Shown in pieces: positions 2,032 to 13,161 of a DNA stretch of 64,000 bases. Under the pieces are notes generated by a model, which ran no database searches, was not told where the DNA came from, and saw only the letters and a program-made list of their open reading frames with translations. Source of the DNA: Sunxiuqinia elliptica (GTDB lineage: Bacteria > Bacteroidota > Bacteroidia > Bacteroidales > Prolixibacteraceae); contig NZ_FONW01000011.1 of the NCBI RefSeq assembly GCF_900113005.1, forward strand, positions 1-64,000. The letters are read 5' to 3'. The translations under genes were made by a program, and so were the position numbers. Within the stretch, counting starts at the first letter, position 1. Each line of letters begins with the position of its first letter.

Positions 2032-3303
2032 ATGAAACGTAAAAAGAAAAAAAAGGGTATTCAGAATAAGCACGAGCTACGCCACCGCCAAAACGAGTTT
2101 TTTAAAAAGCTGAAACATACCATGGCTATCTTGGGGGATGATTCAGCCTTTGATTTGCTTGACAAAAAAAGACGTCTGATGATTTATTGCACCCGCATTC
2201 GCCCTTTTAAGGTTATTAACCCAGCCGAAGGTAAGCGGGCATCAAAAGCAGCCTTGCAGATGCTGAATGACAACTTAACCCAATTACTACAGCACACTTG
2301 GGTCGAGTTAAACAGTCAACAGATACGAATAAACCTATACGATTTTTCGATTTATGCCGAGACCCTGTTTCTTTTTTGGGATAATGTGGTAAACGAAGAA
2401 CCCGATATTGGAGAGAGGTTTCATGCCTGTTTTCCAATTTTCGAGAAAGACGAATTCAATGAGCAACGTTTAAAAATGCTTTGTATGGTTGAACGCCGCT
2501 TAGAGTTACTTAGCTGGCTATTTTCTGACTTCACAAGCAGTACAATTCGTTTTGCTAAGGAAAAGCTAAAAGAGAATCGTCCCCCCTTCGACCTATCTCC
2601 TTTCTTCAATAATTATATTGTAGAGCAGAAAAAGACCGAAACAGAATTGCTGGAAATTGACGGGCACCGGCGCACCATTTTCCGGGTATGTCTAAATGCG
2701 AAGCAAGCATTTATCCCTTTTACACTCACTCCCGAACAACTGGGGCTGCAAGGAATGATGCAAAAGCTTCCATTAAAAGTGTTTATTCAAAAGCATGTCA
2801 TCGTGCGTATGGAAGAACGGCTCGGAAAAACTTTCGTTCATTTAAGCTATTTGTATATTATCACGTCTCTTTTACAAGCACCTCTCCCGGCAGGTAAACC
2901 CAACAGCTTGCTGTTCCCAATGAATGAGGGCAACATACGCCTGGGATACCTGCAAGCCGATATCATTGGTGATAAACTAGTGGTTCGTACCTTCCTTTTT
3001 GTAACCAACAACGGAACACCCGAAGGGAAAAAACTTCAGAAACTAGCTGGTTTAGCCAAACTTGATAAAGCTTATTTGGGGATTGATCGTCTCAACACGT
3101 TTATTACATCCGATATTAAAGATCATCAGCAATTAAGAGCTCTTTTTAACCAAGCCGGATGTGGTGGATTGTTCCAACTAAATTATTCGTGGATGATTAA
3201 AGCGAATAAAAAACAAGGAGCTTGCGCCGATCGCCTGGCTTGTTACCTGGGCCTGCAGCAAGCTACAGGGAGGCAAACAGCAAACAAGCATGAAGCGGTC
3301 TGA
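2032..3303 (+). CDS. hypothetical protein, 423 aa
   Basis: I do not recognise this protein. The ATG at 2032 (MKRKKKKKG) is preferred over the TTG 57 nt upstream because it opens with a basic run typical of a soluble nucleic-acid-binding or chromosome-associated N-terminus. There is no signal peptide and no clear membrane segment. The middle is helix-rich and charged, and a later part contains FIQKHVIVRMEERLG. Cysteines cluster near the end (QAGCGGLF, QGACADRLACYLG). The last residues (HEAV) are encoded by the left arm of a palindromic element, so the C-terminus may have been replaced by an insertion. It has no operon partners. Confidence 0.6.
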   Translation: MKRKKKKKGIQNKHELRHRQNEFFKKLKHTMAILGDDSAFDLLDKKRRLMIYCTRIRPFKVINPAEGKRASKAALQMLNDNLTQLLQHTWVELNSQQIRINLYDFSIYAETLFLFWDNVVNEEPDIGERFHACFPIFEKDEFNEQRLKMLCMVERRLELLSWLFSDFTSSTIRFAKEKLKENRPPFDLSPFFNNYIVEQKKTETELLEIDGHRRTIFRVCLNAKQAFIPFTLTPEQLGLQGMMQKLPLKVFIQKHVIVRMEERLGKTFVHLSYLYIITSLLQAPLPAGKPNSLLFPMNEGNIRLGYLQADIIGDKLVVRTFLFVTNNGTPEGKKLQKLAGLAKLDKAYLGIDRLNTFITSDIKDHQQLRALFNQAGCGGLFQLNYSWMIKANKKQGACADRLACYLGLQQATGRQTANKHEAV

Positions 3304-3427
3304 AAAGTATCATTCTTCGTCATTGCGAAGGAGGAACGACTGAAGCAATCTTTTGAATAACAGATTGCTTCGTTTCACTCGCAATGACGGTTTTTCGTAC
3401 TCAAGGGACTTTTTAGACCGCTTCATG
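3289..3427. repeat. ~140-bp palindromic (MITE/REP-like) element
   Basis: Outer arms CATGAAGCGGTCTGAAAAGT (3289-3308) and its near-perfect complement (3408-3427, one mismatch) enclose a second, inner inverted repeat. That inner repeat runs from CGTCATTGCG (3318-3327) through GAAGCAATCT (3342-3351) to AGATTGCTTCG...CGCAATGACG (3362-3389). The inner CGTCATTGCGA...GAAGCAATCT sequence belongs to a type of dispersed repeat I know from many unrelated bacterial genomes. The left arm overlaps the end of the upstream ORF. The element separates two convergent genes and would fold into a long RNA hairpin. Confidence 0.75.
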
Positions 3428-3435
3428 GCAAGTAT

Positions 3436-3888
3436 TTAAACACTTACTTCCTCTGAAACCAAACTAAAGGTCAAAGGAGTAATATTGGCGAGGTTATCAT
3501 TAATTGGACAACGATCTTTGATTCGCTCAATCCATTGGCTTACTTGTTCGGGATCGGCATCCGTAATGGGCGAAAATTTGACATCAATTTGTTTAAATCC
3601 TGCCCGCTCGGCATCTGCTTGCCCCAACAAACGTTCCGGATTCAGGTTACCACTTACCTCAATTCCCAATTTCTCAACATGAATTCCCAATTCTTTGGCT
3701 GCAAGATGGGCAACAACATTGATACATCCTGCATAGCTGGCCAGGAGGTATTCAACGGGGTTTGCTCCAAGGTCATCTCCTCCAAGCGCCGGGGGTTCAT
3801 CAATTACAATCGAAAACTGCCGTGCACCGGCAACAAATCTCGCTCCTGTTTGAGCTTCACCTTCAATTTTAAAATTTAAATCTGCCAT
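3436..3888 (-). CDS. OsmC family protein
   Basis: This 150-aa OsmC/Ohr-superfamily protein has the two family cysteines, Cys55 (SYAGCINV) and Cys127 (KDRCPIND), which normally act as a peroxidatic/resolving or persulfide-reactive pair. Start MADLNFKIEG is chosen over an ATG 12 codons upstream, because that one lies inside a terminator hairpin. It is cytoplasmic. A Cys-rich leader ORF and an intrinsic terminator lie directly upstream, implying that expression rises when cysteine is scarce. This points to sulfur or thiol metabolism rather than general osmotic or peroxide stress; that functional reading is inference. Confidence 0.9.
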   Translation of the reverse strand: MADLNFKIEGEAQTGARFVAGARQFSIVIDEPPALGGDDLGANPVEYLLASYAGCINVVAHLAAKELGIHVEKLGIEVSGNLNPERLLGQADAERAGFKQIDVKFSPITDADPEQVSQWIERIKDRCPINDNLANITPLTFSLVSEEVSV

Positions 3889-3906: not shown

Positions 3907-3940
3907 AAAAAAAAAGCCCTTCACAAAACTGTGAAGGGCT
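3907..3940 (-). terminator. attenuator terminator upstream of osmC
   Basis: On the minus strand, AGCCCTTCAC and GTGAAGGGCT form a perfect 10-bp stem around a 6-nt loop, followed by nine T (3915 down to 3907). It stands between the Cys-rich leader ORF (ends 3973) and the osmC start (3888). It therefore cannot be osmC's own terminator and is best read as an attenuator. Confidence 0.85.
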
Positions 3941-3972
3941 GAAACCTATTCTTATATTTAAGTATTCTAGAA

Positions 3973-4062
3973 TTATAGAAGCACAGCATCACCCTCCACA
4001 TGTTTGAAAAACATACAGCAACACATCGTTGTCATGTTGATGATGGAAAATGATAAATTCAT
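3973..4062 (-). CDS. cysteine-rich leader peptide of osmC
   Basis: A 29-codon ORF with three consecutive Cys codons (4023-4015) between Met codons: its centre reads NMTTMCCCMFFKHVEGD. The start is ATG at 4062, or the internal ATG at 4035, which would give 20 aa. It ends 32 nt before the attenuator terminator. The same layout, with the same 15-nt gap between the Cys run and the antiterminator, precedes cysK at 12092. The likely function is to sense charged tRNA-Cys by ribosome stalling; the peptide itself probably has no job. Confidence 0.7.
   Translation of the reverse strand: MNLSFSIINMTTMCCCMFFKHVEGDAVLL
3991..3999 (-). promoter_or_regulatory. candidate antiterminator segment of the osmC leader
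   Basis: GTGGAGGGT, covering the Val-Glu-Gly codons of the leader ORF, can pair over 9 bp (two of them G-U) with GCCCTTCAC, the left arm of the terminator at 3915-3940. It begins exactly 15 nt after the last Cys codon. A ribosome stalled at Cys would leave it free to block the terminator; one finishing at the stop codon would cover it. Confidence 0.65.
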
Positions 4063-4188
4063 TATTTCTTTTTGCGCTGTGCGATTAATAGCCTGCAATA
4101 ATACAACTTAAATAGCAAATTTGAAAATTCGTCCCTGCTCTCGTGCAAGACGTACTTGTCTCCGGATAAATCTGGATCCGCTCGCCTC

Positions 4189-7538: not shown

Positions 7539-8660
7539 TTACTTTGTGACTTCTTGCCGACGATAGAAATGCTTGGAGTCGCCCCATTCGCCATAGCCAA
7601 TCTCACTTCCGGCCAGTTCAATACGTGCTTCCAGGCAATTGCGACACAAGGCAGCATCTTCATCCAAACAAGGCTTGTCCTCATACAATTGATACTCTTT
7701 CCGGAAATCACAAGGCGTTAAATTCGGCATAATCACGTTGGCACCAATCTTCAGAGCTTTTTCCCGCCCAACAGGATCAATGGCTTGCAAAGCCGTTGCC
7801 GCTGCAATATTTATGTCTGGCATGAGCAATCGCAGGCTGGCCACCATCTTCAAGGCCAAATCAAAACGTTCTTGCTTCGTTTTTAGCTGAGACCGATAGG
7901 CGTATAAGGGAGTATCTTCGTGCTCAATATAGGGGCCCATCCCCACCATATCCACATCCAGCTTTTTCAAAAACAATAAATCTTCTGCCAAATCTTCATC
8001 GGTTTGAAATGGCAGTCCAATCATCACTCCTGTTCCCACTTGGTAGCCACACTCTTTCAATAACTTCAAGCAATCCTGCCGCTTTTCATAGGCATGCAGG
8101 TCATTTTGGGGATGAATTTTATGATACAGGTCTGGAGTCGAACTTTCAATGCGCAACAAATAACGATGTGCCCCACTTTCGAACCAACGTTGGTATGTTT
8201 CTTTGGTTTGTTCGCCACAGGAAAGCGTAATGCCCAACTCCTTATTCGACATTTTCTTGATGGCTTGCAGCAAGCGGTCAACCCGCTTCACAAAAGCTGG
8301 CGACGAGAGCTCTCCCGACTGAAGAACCACTGAGCCAAAACGATTTTCCCAGGCAAAACGGCAAGCTCCCAGAATTTCATCATCGGTAGCTTCATAACGC
8401 AGCACCTTCTCATTGCTCTTTCGAATACCGCAATACAGGCAATCCTTCGCACAAATATTGGAGAACTCGACCAAGCCGCGAAAGAAAACCTTTTTCCCAA
8501 CCGTTGCTACCTTGCGAGCCTGTGCCGCTTCAAAAAGTAACTGACGCTCCTCCCTTTCTGCCTGCAACAGACAAACTAAATCCGCTTTTGAGAATTCCGT
8601 TTGAGCCAGTATTTCCTTTATTTTTTTCACCTTACGAAGATAATTATTTTGCACGTTCAA
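7539..8660 (-). CDS. hydE: [FeFe]-hydrogenase maturase HydE (radical SAM)
   Basis: This radical-SAM enzyme has the CX3CX2C cluster motif at Cys70, Cys74 and Cys77 (NICAKDCLYCG), with the typical HydE/BioB-like barrel (CGEQTKETY; GTGVMIGLPFQTDEDLAEDL). A second cysteine set near the C-terminus (PCLDEDAALCRNC) may hold the auxiliary cluster seen in some HydE proteins. HydE supplies part of the dithiolate ligand of the H-cluster. Neither hydF, hydG nor a hydrogenase gene is nearby, so partners must be elsewhere or this is an orphan HydE-like enzyme. Its start MNVQNNYLRK is the first in frame. Confidence 0.88.
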   Translation of the reverse strand: MNVQNNYLRKVKKIKEILAQTEFSKADLVCLLQAEREERQLLFEAAQARKVATVGKKVFFRGLVEFSNICAKDCLYCGIRKSNEKVLRYEATDDEILGACRFAWENRFGSVVLQSGELSSPAFVKRVDRLLQAIKKMSNKELGITLSCGEQTKETYQRWFESGAHRYLLRIESSTPDLYHKIHPQNDLHAYEKRQDCLKLLKECGYQVGTGVMIGLPFQTDEDLAEDLLFLKKLDVDMVGMGPYIEHEDTPLYAYRSQLKTKQERFDLALKMVASLRLLMPDINIAAATALQAIDPVGREKALKIGANVIMPNLTPCDFRKEYQLYEDKPCLDEDAALCRNCLEARIELAGSEIGYGEWGDSKHFYRRQEVTK

Positions 8661-12091: not shown

Positions 12092-12163
12092 ATGAAAAAT
12101 ACCTTCTTAAATATGTGTTACTGCTGTTGTATGATTACAACACGGGGAAGGTATGTCGAGTAG
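12092..12163 (+). CDS. cysteine-rich leader peptide of cysK
   Basis: A 23-residue ORF containing four Cys codons in five (12116-12130, TGT TAC TGC TGT TGT) flanked by Met; the centre reads NMCYCCCMITTRG. It is followed by an intrinsic terminator (12193-12224) and then cysK at 12250. This is the classical arrangement of amino-acid leader attenuation: ribosome stalling at Cys codons when Cys-tRNA is scarce lets the gene be read. An equivalent leader precedes osmC at 4062 on the other strand. Confidence 0.78.
   Translation: MKNTFLNMCYCCCMITTRGRYVE
12146..12152 (+). promoter_or_regulatory. candidate antiterminator segment of the cysK leader
   Basis: GGAAGG (12146-12151) is complementary to CCTTCC (12196-12201), the left arm of the attenuator terminator; T12152 can add a G-U pair. 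It starts exactly 15 nt after the last Cys codon and ends 9 nt before the leader stop codon, so a terminating ribosome would mask it while a Cys-stalled one would not. Confidence 0.65.
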
Positions 12164-12192: not shown

Positions 12193-12224
12193 AGGCCTTC
12201 CAATCATTTGGGAGGCCTTTTTTT
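12193..12224 (+). terminator. attenuator terminator upstream of cysK
   Basis: AGGCCTTCC (12193-12201) and GGGAGGCCT (12210-12218) form a 9-bp stem with one G-U pair and an 8-nt loop, followed by seven T. It lies 29 nt after the leader ORF stop and 25 nt before the cysK ATG, so it must act on cysK transcription rather than end a preceding gene. Confidence 0.85.
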
Positions 12225-12249: not shown

Positions 12250-13161
12250 ATGAAATTTAACAACATCCTGGAAACCATCGGGAATTCCCCACTGGTTCGA
12301 ATCAACAACCTGTATCCTAAAGGATACGAAGTGTACGTAAAACTGGAAAAAACCAACCCAGGTGGTAGCATCAAAGACCGTATTGCCTTGAAAATGGTTG
12401 AAAAAGCCGAAGCCGATGGGGTTTTAAAACCAGACAGCCTGATTGTGGAGCCAACATCAGGAAACACCGGAATTGGCTTGGCTTTGGTAGCCGCTGTAAA
12501 AAAATACAAACTGATCTTGGTGATGCCAGAATCCATGTCATTGGAGCGCCGTCGTATTTTGACTGCTCATGGAGCCAAGTTGGTGCTTACCCCAAAAGAA
12601 AAGGGCATGAAAGGAGCCATCGAAAAAGCTCAGGAGATTGCTGCTGAGAACCCAAATTCTTGGATTCCATCGCAGTTTGATAATGAAGCCAACATCACTG
12701 CTCACCGCGAACATACCGCTCAAGAAATCCTGACTGATTTTCCTGAAGGCTTTGACTACCTGATTACCGGCGTTGGAACAGGAGGACATATTTCGGGGGT
12801 TAGCGAAGTATTGAAAAAAAGCTTTCCAAACTTGCAAACCCTAGCTGTTGAGCCAGAAGCTTCTCCGGTGATTAGCGGCGGAAATCCAGGGCCTCATCCA
12901 ATTCAAGGGATTGGCGCAGGTTTCATCCCTGAAAACCTAAAAACCAACCTTCTTGATGGCACCGTTCAGGTTAGTAAAGATGAAGCCTTTGAATATGCGC
13001 AAAGAGCTGCCCGCGAAGAAGGTTTGTTTGTTGGAATTTCGTCTGGAGCATCGTTAGCTGCCGTTGCCAAAAAAATAAAAGAGCTGCCTAAAGGCTCGAA
13101 AATTTTGACTTTCTCCTACGATACCGGAGAACGCTACCTCTCTGTTGAAGGTTTGTTTTAA
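12250..13161 (+). CDS. cysK: cysteine synthase A
   Basis: PLP enzyme making L-cysteine from O-acetylserine and sulfide in the cytoplasm. The PLP lysine is Lys42 in [11 protein letters not shown]; the substrate loop is [11 protein letters not shown] (68-78); [10 protein letters not shown] binds the cofactor phosphate. Length (303 aa) is normal. The start ATG at 12250 ([16 protein letters not shown]) is chosen because an upstream in-frame ATG at 12187 lies before and reads through the terminator hairpin. The Cys-leader attenuator directly upstream gives end-product control. A strong terminator follows the gene. Confidence 0.96.

Follow-up and report, generated by a model that had tools for sequence, protein, structure and literature searches.

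Organization of the osmC locus

The window, that is, the whole 64,000-nucleotide stretch of DNA analysed here, carries a gene for an OsmC-like protein on its minus strand, which is preceded by a short Cys-rich ORF and a hairpin with a T run. A second element of the same kind lies before cysK on the plus strand (Table 1). The osmC product matches the OsmC/Ohr superfamily model PF02566 with 65.4 bits (cut-off 27.5, E = 6.6e-18). It scores below the cut-offs of TIGR03562 (19.4 versus 85.8 bits) and TIGR03561 (20.7 versus 88.85 bits), which describe OsmC or Ohr peroxiredoxin subfamilies, and of NF041052 (72.5 versus 95 bits). C55 and C127 are invariant across 8 aligned relatives; we take them to be the usual OsmC Cys positions and candidate catalytic residues. 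No sulfur gene adjoins osmC in this genome. An inverted repeat with the arms CGTCATTGCGAG and CGTCATTGCGAA lies 3' of osmC at 3318-3389; it is perhaps a small mobile-type intergenic repeat, and with up to 1 mismatch allowed the two arms are the sole matches in the window. The window also holds a HydE-type maturase gene for [FeFe] hydrogenase at 7539-8660 (TIGR03956, above cut-off).

Table 1. Coordinates of the osmC and cysK elements in the window
Feature	Position	Strand	Evidence or remark
osmC-like gene, 150 aa, presumed controlled gene	3888-3436 (ATG at 3888)	-	PF02566
Leader ORF of osmC, 29 codons, peptide MNLSFSIINMTTMCCCMFFKHVEGDAVLL (contains ...MCCCMFFKHVEG...)	4062-3973	-	read from sequence
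Putative sensor codons, three Cys codons TGT TGC TGT with Met codons on both sides	4023-4015	-	
Segment 1, CATCATC, able to pair with 3993-3987 and mask the antiterminator	4045-4039	-	minimum-energy fold, window leader
Segment 2, antiterminator TGTGGAGGGT, within the leader ORF	4000-3991	-	pairs with 3939-3930
Intrinsic terminator, perfect 11-bp stem, 4-nt loop, T run	3940-3907	-	
Candidate promoter, TTTC (4126-4123) and TATTATTG (4103-4096)	4096..4126	-	weak
cysK leader ORF MKNTFLNMCYCCCMITTRGRYVE, second element of the same kind	12092..12163	+	
Terminator of the cysK leader	12193..12218	+	
cysK, cysteine synthase A	12253..13161	+	TIGR01139, 407 bits, cut-off 351

Leader, antiterminator and terminator

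The leader ORF runs from an ATG at 4062-4060 to a TAA at 3975-3973, and the run of three Cys codons that the initial annotation had placed at 4023-4015 is found exactly there. The antiterminator TGTGGAGGGT and GCCCTTCACA of the left terminator arm form 10 bp, two of them G-U. A pairing with this arm had been described before as 9 bp long; the pairing itself stands, but its length becomes 10 bp when the T at 4000 is counted. The distance of 15 nt from the last Cys codon to the antiterminator holds for GTGGAGGGT at 3999-3991, and it is 14 nt with the pairing T at 4000 included. The terminator, AGCCCTTCACA-GTTT-TGTGAAGGGCT at 3940-3915 followed by a T run that reaches 3907, has a perfect stem as annotated, of 11 bp rather than 10. 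Only 18 nt separate it from osmC. A promoter in this gap would have made the terminator irrelevant, and no match to the Bacteroidota promoter consensus, which we assumed to be TTTG/TAnnTTTG for scoring, is present there. The candidate promoter upstream of the leader matches 8 of the 10 positions of this consensus and is weak. No Rfam 15 family matched the window at gathering score.

The full window leader folded alone gives the terminator together with a helix between segment 1 and segment 2 (4045-4039 with 3993-3987), with an energy of -35.2 kcal/mol (z = -2.4). The stretch 4010-3926, from which the right terminator arm is absent, folds as the antiterminator (-22.4 kcal/mol, z = -3.0). These two folds are the alternatives of a trp-type attenuator. 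When the stretch from the last Cys codon to the terminator was dinucleotide-shuffled 500 times, no shuffle equalled the observed pairing with the left arm; the same test gave equally good pairing in 13 of 500 shuffles for the cysK leader and in 8 of 500 for the cysJI leader.

Conservation of the element in relatives

A first set consisted of 61 genomes, the window's own and 60 relatives. OsmC relatives were found in 21 of them, with 37 matches in total, of which 30 were taken as loci. Close orthologues lacking the element would have spoken against the initial annotation and were looked for. Among 23 of these loci that were inspected, all six intact orthologues of at least 68% identity (the window's included) had a Cys-rich leader with a terminator, and the remaining 17 had no such pair in the 350 nt scanned upstream. 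One of these 17 is an osmC broken by a stop and a frame change (G015:C63, loci L009/L024; 67% identity in its best piece), which has no Cys leader.

The best 80 of 566 confirmed osmC loci in a larger genome collection were also examined. Among these 80, the Cys-rich leader with terminator was present at 16 of the 17 loci whose osmC has at least 63% identity; the element-bearing loci L083-L098 range from 63 to 79%. Four of the 16 overlap with the 61-genome set, and a single metagenome-assembled genome supplied both L084 and L091. Conservation in close orthologues thus stands for 6/6 and 16/17 loci, and against it are L099 (63%), L100 (62%), L101 (60%) and the broken G015 gene, where no Cys leader lies within 350 nt of osmC. 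At two more distant loci, L103 and L122, osmC is likewise preceded by a Cys-rich leader and a terminator. Two Prolixibacteraceae loci, L141 (6387-6971) and L160 (from 6384), have them before a carbonic anhydrase gene adjoining osmC, which in L141 is assigned to Pfam Pro_CA. With these four, the element was found at 20 of the best 80 of 566 loci. Within 350 nt upstream, 62 of the 80 had none directly before osmC, including the two with the leader before the neighbouring carbonic anhydrase.

The leader and terminator are kept in relatives despite differing upstream genes, some of which lie on the opposite strand. When 875 genes (the window and L073-L162, some genomes being present twice) were scanned with lax criteria, 31 matches were obtained: 20 at osmC, 2 at cysK, 2 at the osmC-linked carbonic anhydrases and 7 elsewhere, one of which is an implausible leader at a cysK paralogue. 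At L095, osmC and the next, cysK-like gene each have their own leader.

Coding frame, spacing and covariation

The alignment contained 17 of 18 osmC leaders; L086, whose leader peptide equals that of L084, was omitted, and L103 and L122 were outside it. All 17 keep the Cys-rich cluster and the reading frame. The Cys triplet and the antiterminator are 24 nt apart in 16 leaders and 27 nt apart in one, so that their distance is in frame in 17/17, and the only coding gaps are two insertion columns of 3 and 6 nt. The non-coding spacer between the antiterminator and the terminator occurs in all three phases (6, 7 and 4 leaders). The Cys codons of the aligned leaders are 43 TGT and 19 TGC. In 15 of the 17, a Met codon comes immediately after a Cys codon where the cluster ends, and in the other two it comes after an Arg codon; Cys-Met-Cys occurs in 14, the window's own leader not being among them.

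The gap between the last Cys codon and the antiterminator was measured by script in 20 leaders and was 14 nt in 13 of them and 13-18 nt in five (L090, L093, L094, L098 and L122). L089 gave 7 nt, from a wrong-frame ORF picked by the script, and no credible antiterminator was found by this search in L103. The antiterminators of L088 and L090 are short, with 8 and 7 bp.

Base pairing is kept in 98.2% of the alignment cells of the antiterminator, and 2 sequences show one double change, from G-C to A-U. One double-change pair was also reached in 106 of 500 shuffles, and the covariation score in 2 of 500. For the terminator, 98.4% of cells are paired in the 17 sequences, and its two double-change pairs were reached in 33 of 500 shuffles. 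Covariation is supportive of the element but modest.

Related leaders before cysK, the sulfite reductase operon and other genes

Two covariance models were built, R1 from 17 osmC leaders and R2 from 11 of the 24 cysK leaders found, and the training sets included the window's own leaders (osmC in R1, cysK in R2). On the 5.1-Mb genome, both models gave the same three top elements: osmC, cysK and an element at C6:158036-158171. The E-values with R1 were 1.2e-29, 2.1e-7 and 9.8e-10, respectively, the next match having 0.0016, and those with R2 were 4.3e-4, 3.2e-18 and 3.3e-6, the next having 0.09. About 2,500-3,000 first-look candidates were obtained in the genome searches, and scoring covered 150 of them, which may have left weaker members undetected.

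The third element has a leader, ...MTLACTMMCMCCNLFMQKGERE, and a terminator, and a sequence upstream of it matches 10/10 positions of the Bacteroidota promoter consensus used above. Behind it lie genes for a DUF2061 protein, a siroheme synthase N-terminal domain protein (cysG), CysJ (TIGR01931, above cut-off) and CysI (TIGR02041, above cut-off), then a HemD-like protein, an unassigned protein and a uroporphyrinogen-III methyltransferase. The same element precedes the same genes in the relatives G005 and G006, and the copy in G001 was found by R1 and missed by the leader script. A gapless Cys-Cys-Cys-Met codon pattern occurs at 12 places in the genome, and the leaders among these are just the ones at osmC and cysK. 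With CMCC and no CCC, the third leader escaped the codon pattern and was found only with the covariance models. From the gene context of the third element, the sulfite reductase operon, cysK and osmC would be under one type of switch. This strengthens the earlier prediction that osmC takes part in a cysteine response, and osmC genes that lie inside cysteine or homocysteine synthesis operons in some relatives point the same way.

The initial annotation had taken the osmC and cysK leaders as two independent copies that argue against chance. Chance is indeed opposed by 16/17 loci and by frames kept in 17/17 leaders, but independence is uncertain: R1 finds the cysK element (E = 2.1e-7) and R2 the osmC element (4.3e-4), so the two may share ancestry.

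A leader with terminator was present at 24 of 30 cysK loci (the best from 52 genomes with matches), and one of the six loci without leader is cut by a contig end. Three further genomes of the order have a Cys leader before a gene for serine O-acetyltransferase (cysE); the TIGR01172 matches of these cysE products are below the equivalog cut-off, and one product is above the cut-off of NF041874. G034, a genome without a close osmC, has an osmC-type leader directly before cysK2 and a sulfite reductase gene. An order-wide search with R2 gave matches in 13 of 393 genomes, in which true leaders are mixed with plain hairpins: among the 13 loci outside the own genome, a Cys leader was found in five (cysK 2, cysE 3) and not in eight. 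The family-wide covariance tally of 131 of 140 genomes at E 0.01 is not counted as evidence, since many weak matches may be plain terminators; 20 of the 140 genomes have a match below E 1e-20.

Sulfur-gene neighbourhoods and SAM riboswitches

Some relatives carry osmC among sulfur genes. The leader of Sunxiuqinia dokdonensis (L096/G006) stands before osmC and genes for a ThiS-like carrier, a MetY-like sulfhydrylase, a ThiF/MoeB-like enzyme and a siroheme reductase-TusA fusion, a ThiS-MetY-ThiF-SiR set that we take to resemble the Wolinella thiocarboxylate homocysteine pathway. That of S. indica (L087/G004) is followed by osmC, cysK2, a siroheme reductase-rhodanese domain fusion and a second OsmC. 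A run without osmC is found in G010 (L169 4004-11423): behind an Rrf2-type regulator gene, whose product matches CymR and IscR below cut-off, lie cysK2-thiS-metY-thiF-TusA-JAMM-SiR, and neither osmC nor a Cys leader was found in this run. Among the best 80 of 566 loci, osmC lies on the same strand within 300 nt of a metY-like, cysK or thiS gene in 33/80, versus 32/699 for other genes there, a comparison that ignores relatedness and counts matches of about 30% identity as MetY-like. Fused sulfite reductases occur in 5 of the 61 genomes at E 1e-40. The window's own genome has none at this threshold and has CysJ-CysI, so the role of OsmC cannot depend on the fused enzyme.

Most flavobacterial loci have a metY-like gene followed by osmC, the exceptions being Lutibacter (L147 and L154). 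SAM-I riboswitches were searched for in 20 hand-chosen loci, namely 19 of the 23 metY-adjacent loci without Cys leader and L104. One was present upstream in 15 of these 20 metY-linked, mostly flavobacterial loci (10/10 and 5/10); none was found in L104, L105, L108, L127 and L148, the last of which has little upstream DNA. Ten other loci, eight with a Cys leader and two with neither device, had no SAM-I match. In L102, L106, L107, L110, L113 and L114, SAM-II riboswitches were seen some hundreds of bases before the metY-osmC SAM-I, on the other strand. Together, the Cys leaders and the SAM-I matches indicate that two unrelated sulfur-sensing RNA devices stand before osmC in different lineages.

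Proposed mechanism and alternative explanations

From the leader ORF, the possible pairings, the terminator, their conservation and the set of genes behind the leaders, we infer that the element is very probably a ribosome-mediated transcription attenuator, which responds to charged Cys-tRNA, perhaps to Met-tRNA as well, and has osmC under its control in a small cysteine regulon. With ample cysteine, the ribosome translating the leader would pass the Cys codons and cover the antiterminator segment, the terminator would form, and transcription would end before osmC. When cysteine is low, the ribosome would stall at 4023-4015 with its downstream edge short of 4000-3991; assuming the usual ribosome footprint, the antiterminator presumably lies just past this edge. 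The freed 4000-3991 would then pair with the left terminator arm, and RNA polymerase would continue into osmC. When the leader is not translated, segment 1 (4045-4039) would mask the antiterminator, making termination the default. The cysK gene and the cysG-cysJ-cysI operon would be under the same device.

Other explanations of the hairpin and the leader were weighed against this attenuator. The phosphoesterase gene at 5397-4189 is on the same strand, and the hairpin could be its terminator with the Cys-rich ORF being accidental, but the hairpin lies about 250 nt beyond the phosphoesterase stop, relatives with other upstream genes, some of them on the opposite strand, keep both leader and terminator, and the frame of the leader ORF is conserved, which makes this origin most improbable. 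Hardly more credible is a sensor of general translation stress, or one in which the Cys-rich nascent peptide is itself reactive and reports redox or metal stress. OsmC/Ohr proteins are best known for thiol peroxidase activity, and the candidate catalytic Cys pair, invariant in 8 relatives, fits such a sensor; however, the other genes behind these leaders are for cysteine and siroheme synthesis, and the antiterminator presumably starts just past the end of a ribosome stalled at the Cys codons. A leader that senses methionine, or the sulfur amino acids together, and not just cysteine, is rather unlikely but deserves more weight. It is favoured by the Met codon after Cys at the cluster end (15/17), by Cys-Met-Cys in 14/17 leaders, from which the window's differs, and by the metY genes and SAM riboswitches linked to osmC elsewhere. 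In contrast, Cys codons are what the osmC, cysK, cysJI and cysE leaders have in common, and Met is absent from the cluster of some cysK and cysE leaders.

The job of OsmC is a separate question from the switch. It may be a peroxidase that protects sulfide, cysteine or siroheme enzymes instead of carrying out a sulfur-transfer step, a reading that we hold to be little short of evenly balanced. The conserved Cys pair is consistent with it, and the sulfur-induced OsmC of Pelagibacter was interpreted as a peroxidase (PMC5069961). Against such a guard role stands the location of osmC beside metY-like, cysK or thiS genes (33/80 loci versus 32/699 other genes, relatedness ignored), and the TusA- or rhodanese-fused sulfite reductases in some osmC operons fit sulfur handling at least as well. 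We tentatively propose, with some doubt, that this OsmC branch is a dedicated sulfur-assimilation protein that takes the sulfur set free by sulfite reductase, in the form of persulfide or S0, on towards cysteine or homocysteine synthases. Such a role would explain why osmC shares operons with genes for ThiS, MetY, CysK2, a ThiF/MoeB-like protein and sulfite reductase fused to TusA or rhodanese. It would also explain the cysteine attenuator in Prolixibacteraceae-type genomes and the SAM-I riboswitch in many flavobacterial ones. S0 was reported in 2026 to be a direct product of assimilatory sulfite reductase and a substrate of cysteine synthase (PMC13188885), which makes a persulfide-handling OsmC attractive as a hypothesis.

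Comparison with known systems

The attenuators of trp, his and ilv operons have a leader ORF with a run of regulatory codons and a mutually exclusive antiterminator and intrinsic terminator. The osmC element is alike in these features and differs in being cysteine-specific, as proposed, and in having as its target an OsmC-like protein, not a known biosynthetic enzyme. The class of attenuators is thus already known, cysteine included. For Actinobacteria, leader peptides with Cys runs were predicted upstream of cys operons, with no obvious terminators described and Rho suggested (PMC1262725, 2005), and the mycobacterial polycysteine leaders are cysteine-responsive according to the title of Canestrari 2020 (cited in PMC13236596 and PMC9094748). 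The short Cys-run ORF is common to them and the osmC element; unlike them, the latter has a canonical intrinsic terminator and an antiterminator, and occurs in Bacteroidota.

Within this phylum, "strong clues" for leader-peptide attenuation before amino-acid biosynthesis operons were reported in Flavobacterium psychrophilum, and the one mention of cysteine in the accessible text of that report concerns a protease (PMC9723704). Leader-like short ORFs were described in Bacteroides (PMC7366714). In the main text of a broad survey of terminators, Bacteroid-, cysK and OsmC do not occur (PMC2965389). No report of Cys attenuators in Bacteroidota was found in the open-access literature searched, subscription papers being mostly outside that search. 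The elements described here would define, by sequence, a cysteine attenuation regulon in Bacteroidota, comprising osmC, cysK and cysG-cysJ-cysI in this genome and cysE, cysK2 and carbonic anhydrase in others.

The osmC target also has a precedent. Sulfur limitation raised osmC more than any other gene in "Candidatus Pelagibacter ubique", where osmC was described behind SAM riboswitches and its product was read as a peroxidase by the authors (PMC5069961). The initial annotation had called a cysteine-starvation role unusual for the OsmC family, which is fair with this exception. In the open-access literature searched, only the Pelagibacter papers were relevant to OsmC and sulfur. Pelagibacter and the metY-osmC loci are like the osmC element in having an RNA that responds to sulfur amino acids before osmC. 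In contrast, the SAM riboswitch binds its ligand and senses SAM, whereas the osmC element is proposed to sense charged Cys-tRNA through a leader ORF. The leader layout would tie a poorly understood OsmC branch to sulfur assimilation, and the two unrelated sulfur-sensing RNA devices before osmC in different lineages offer a handle on its role.
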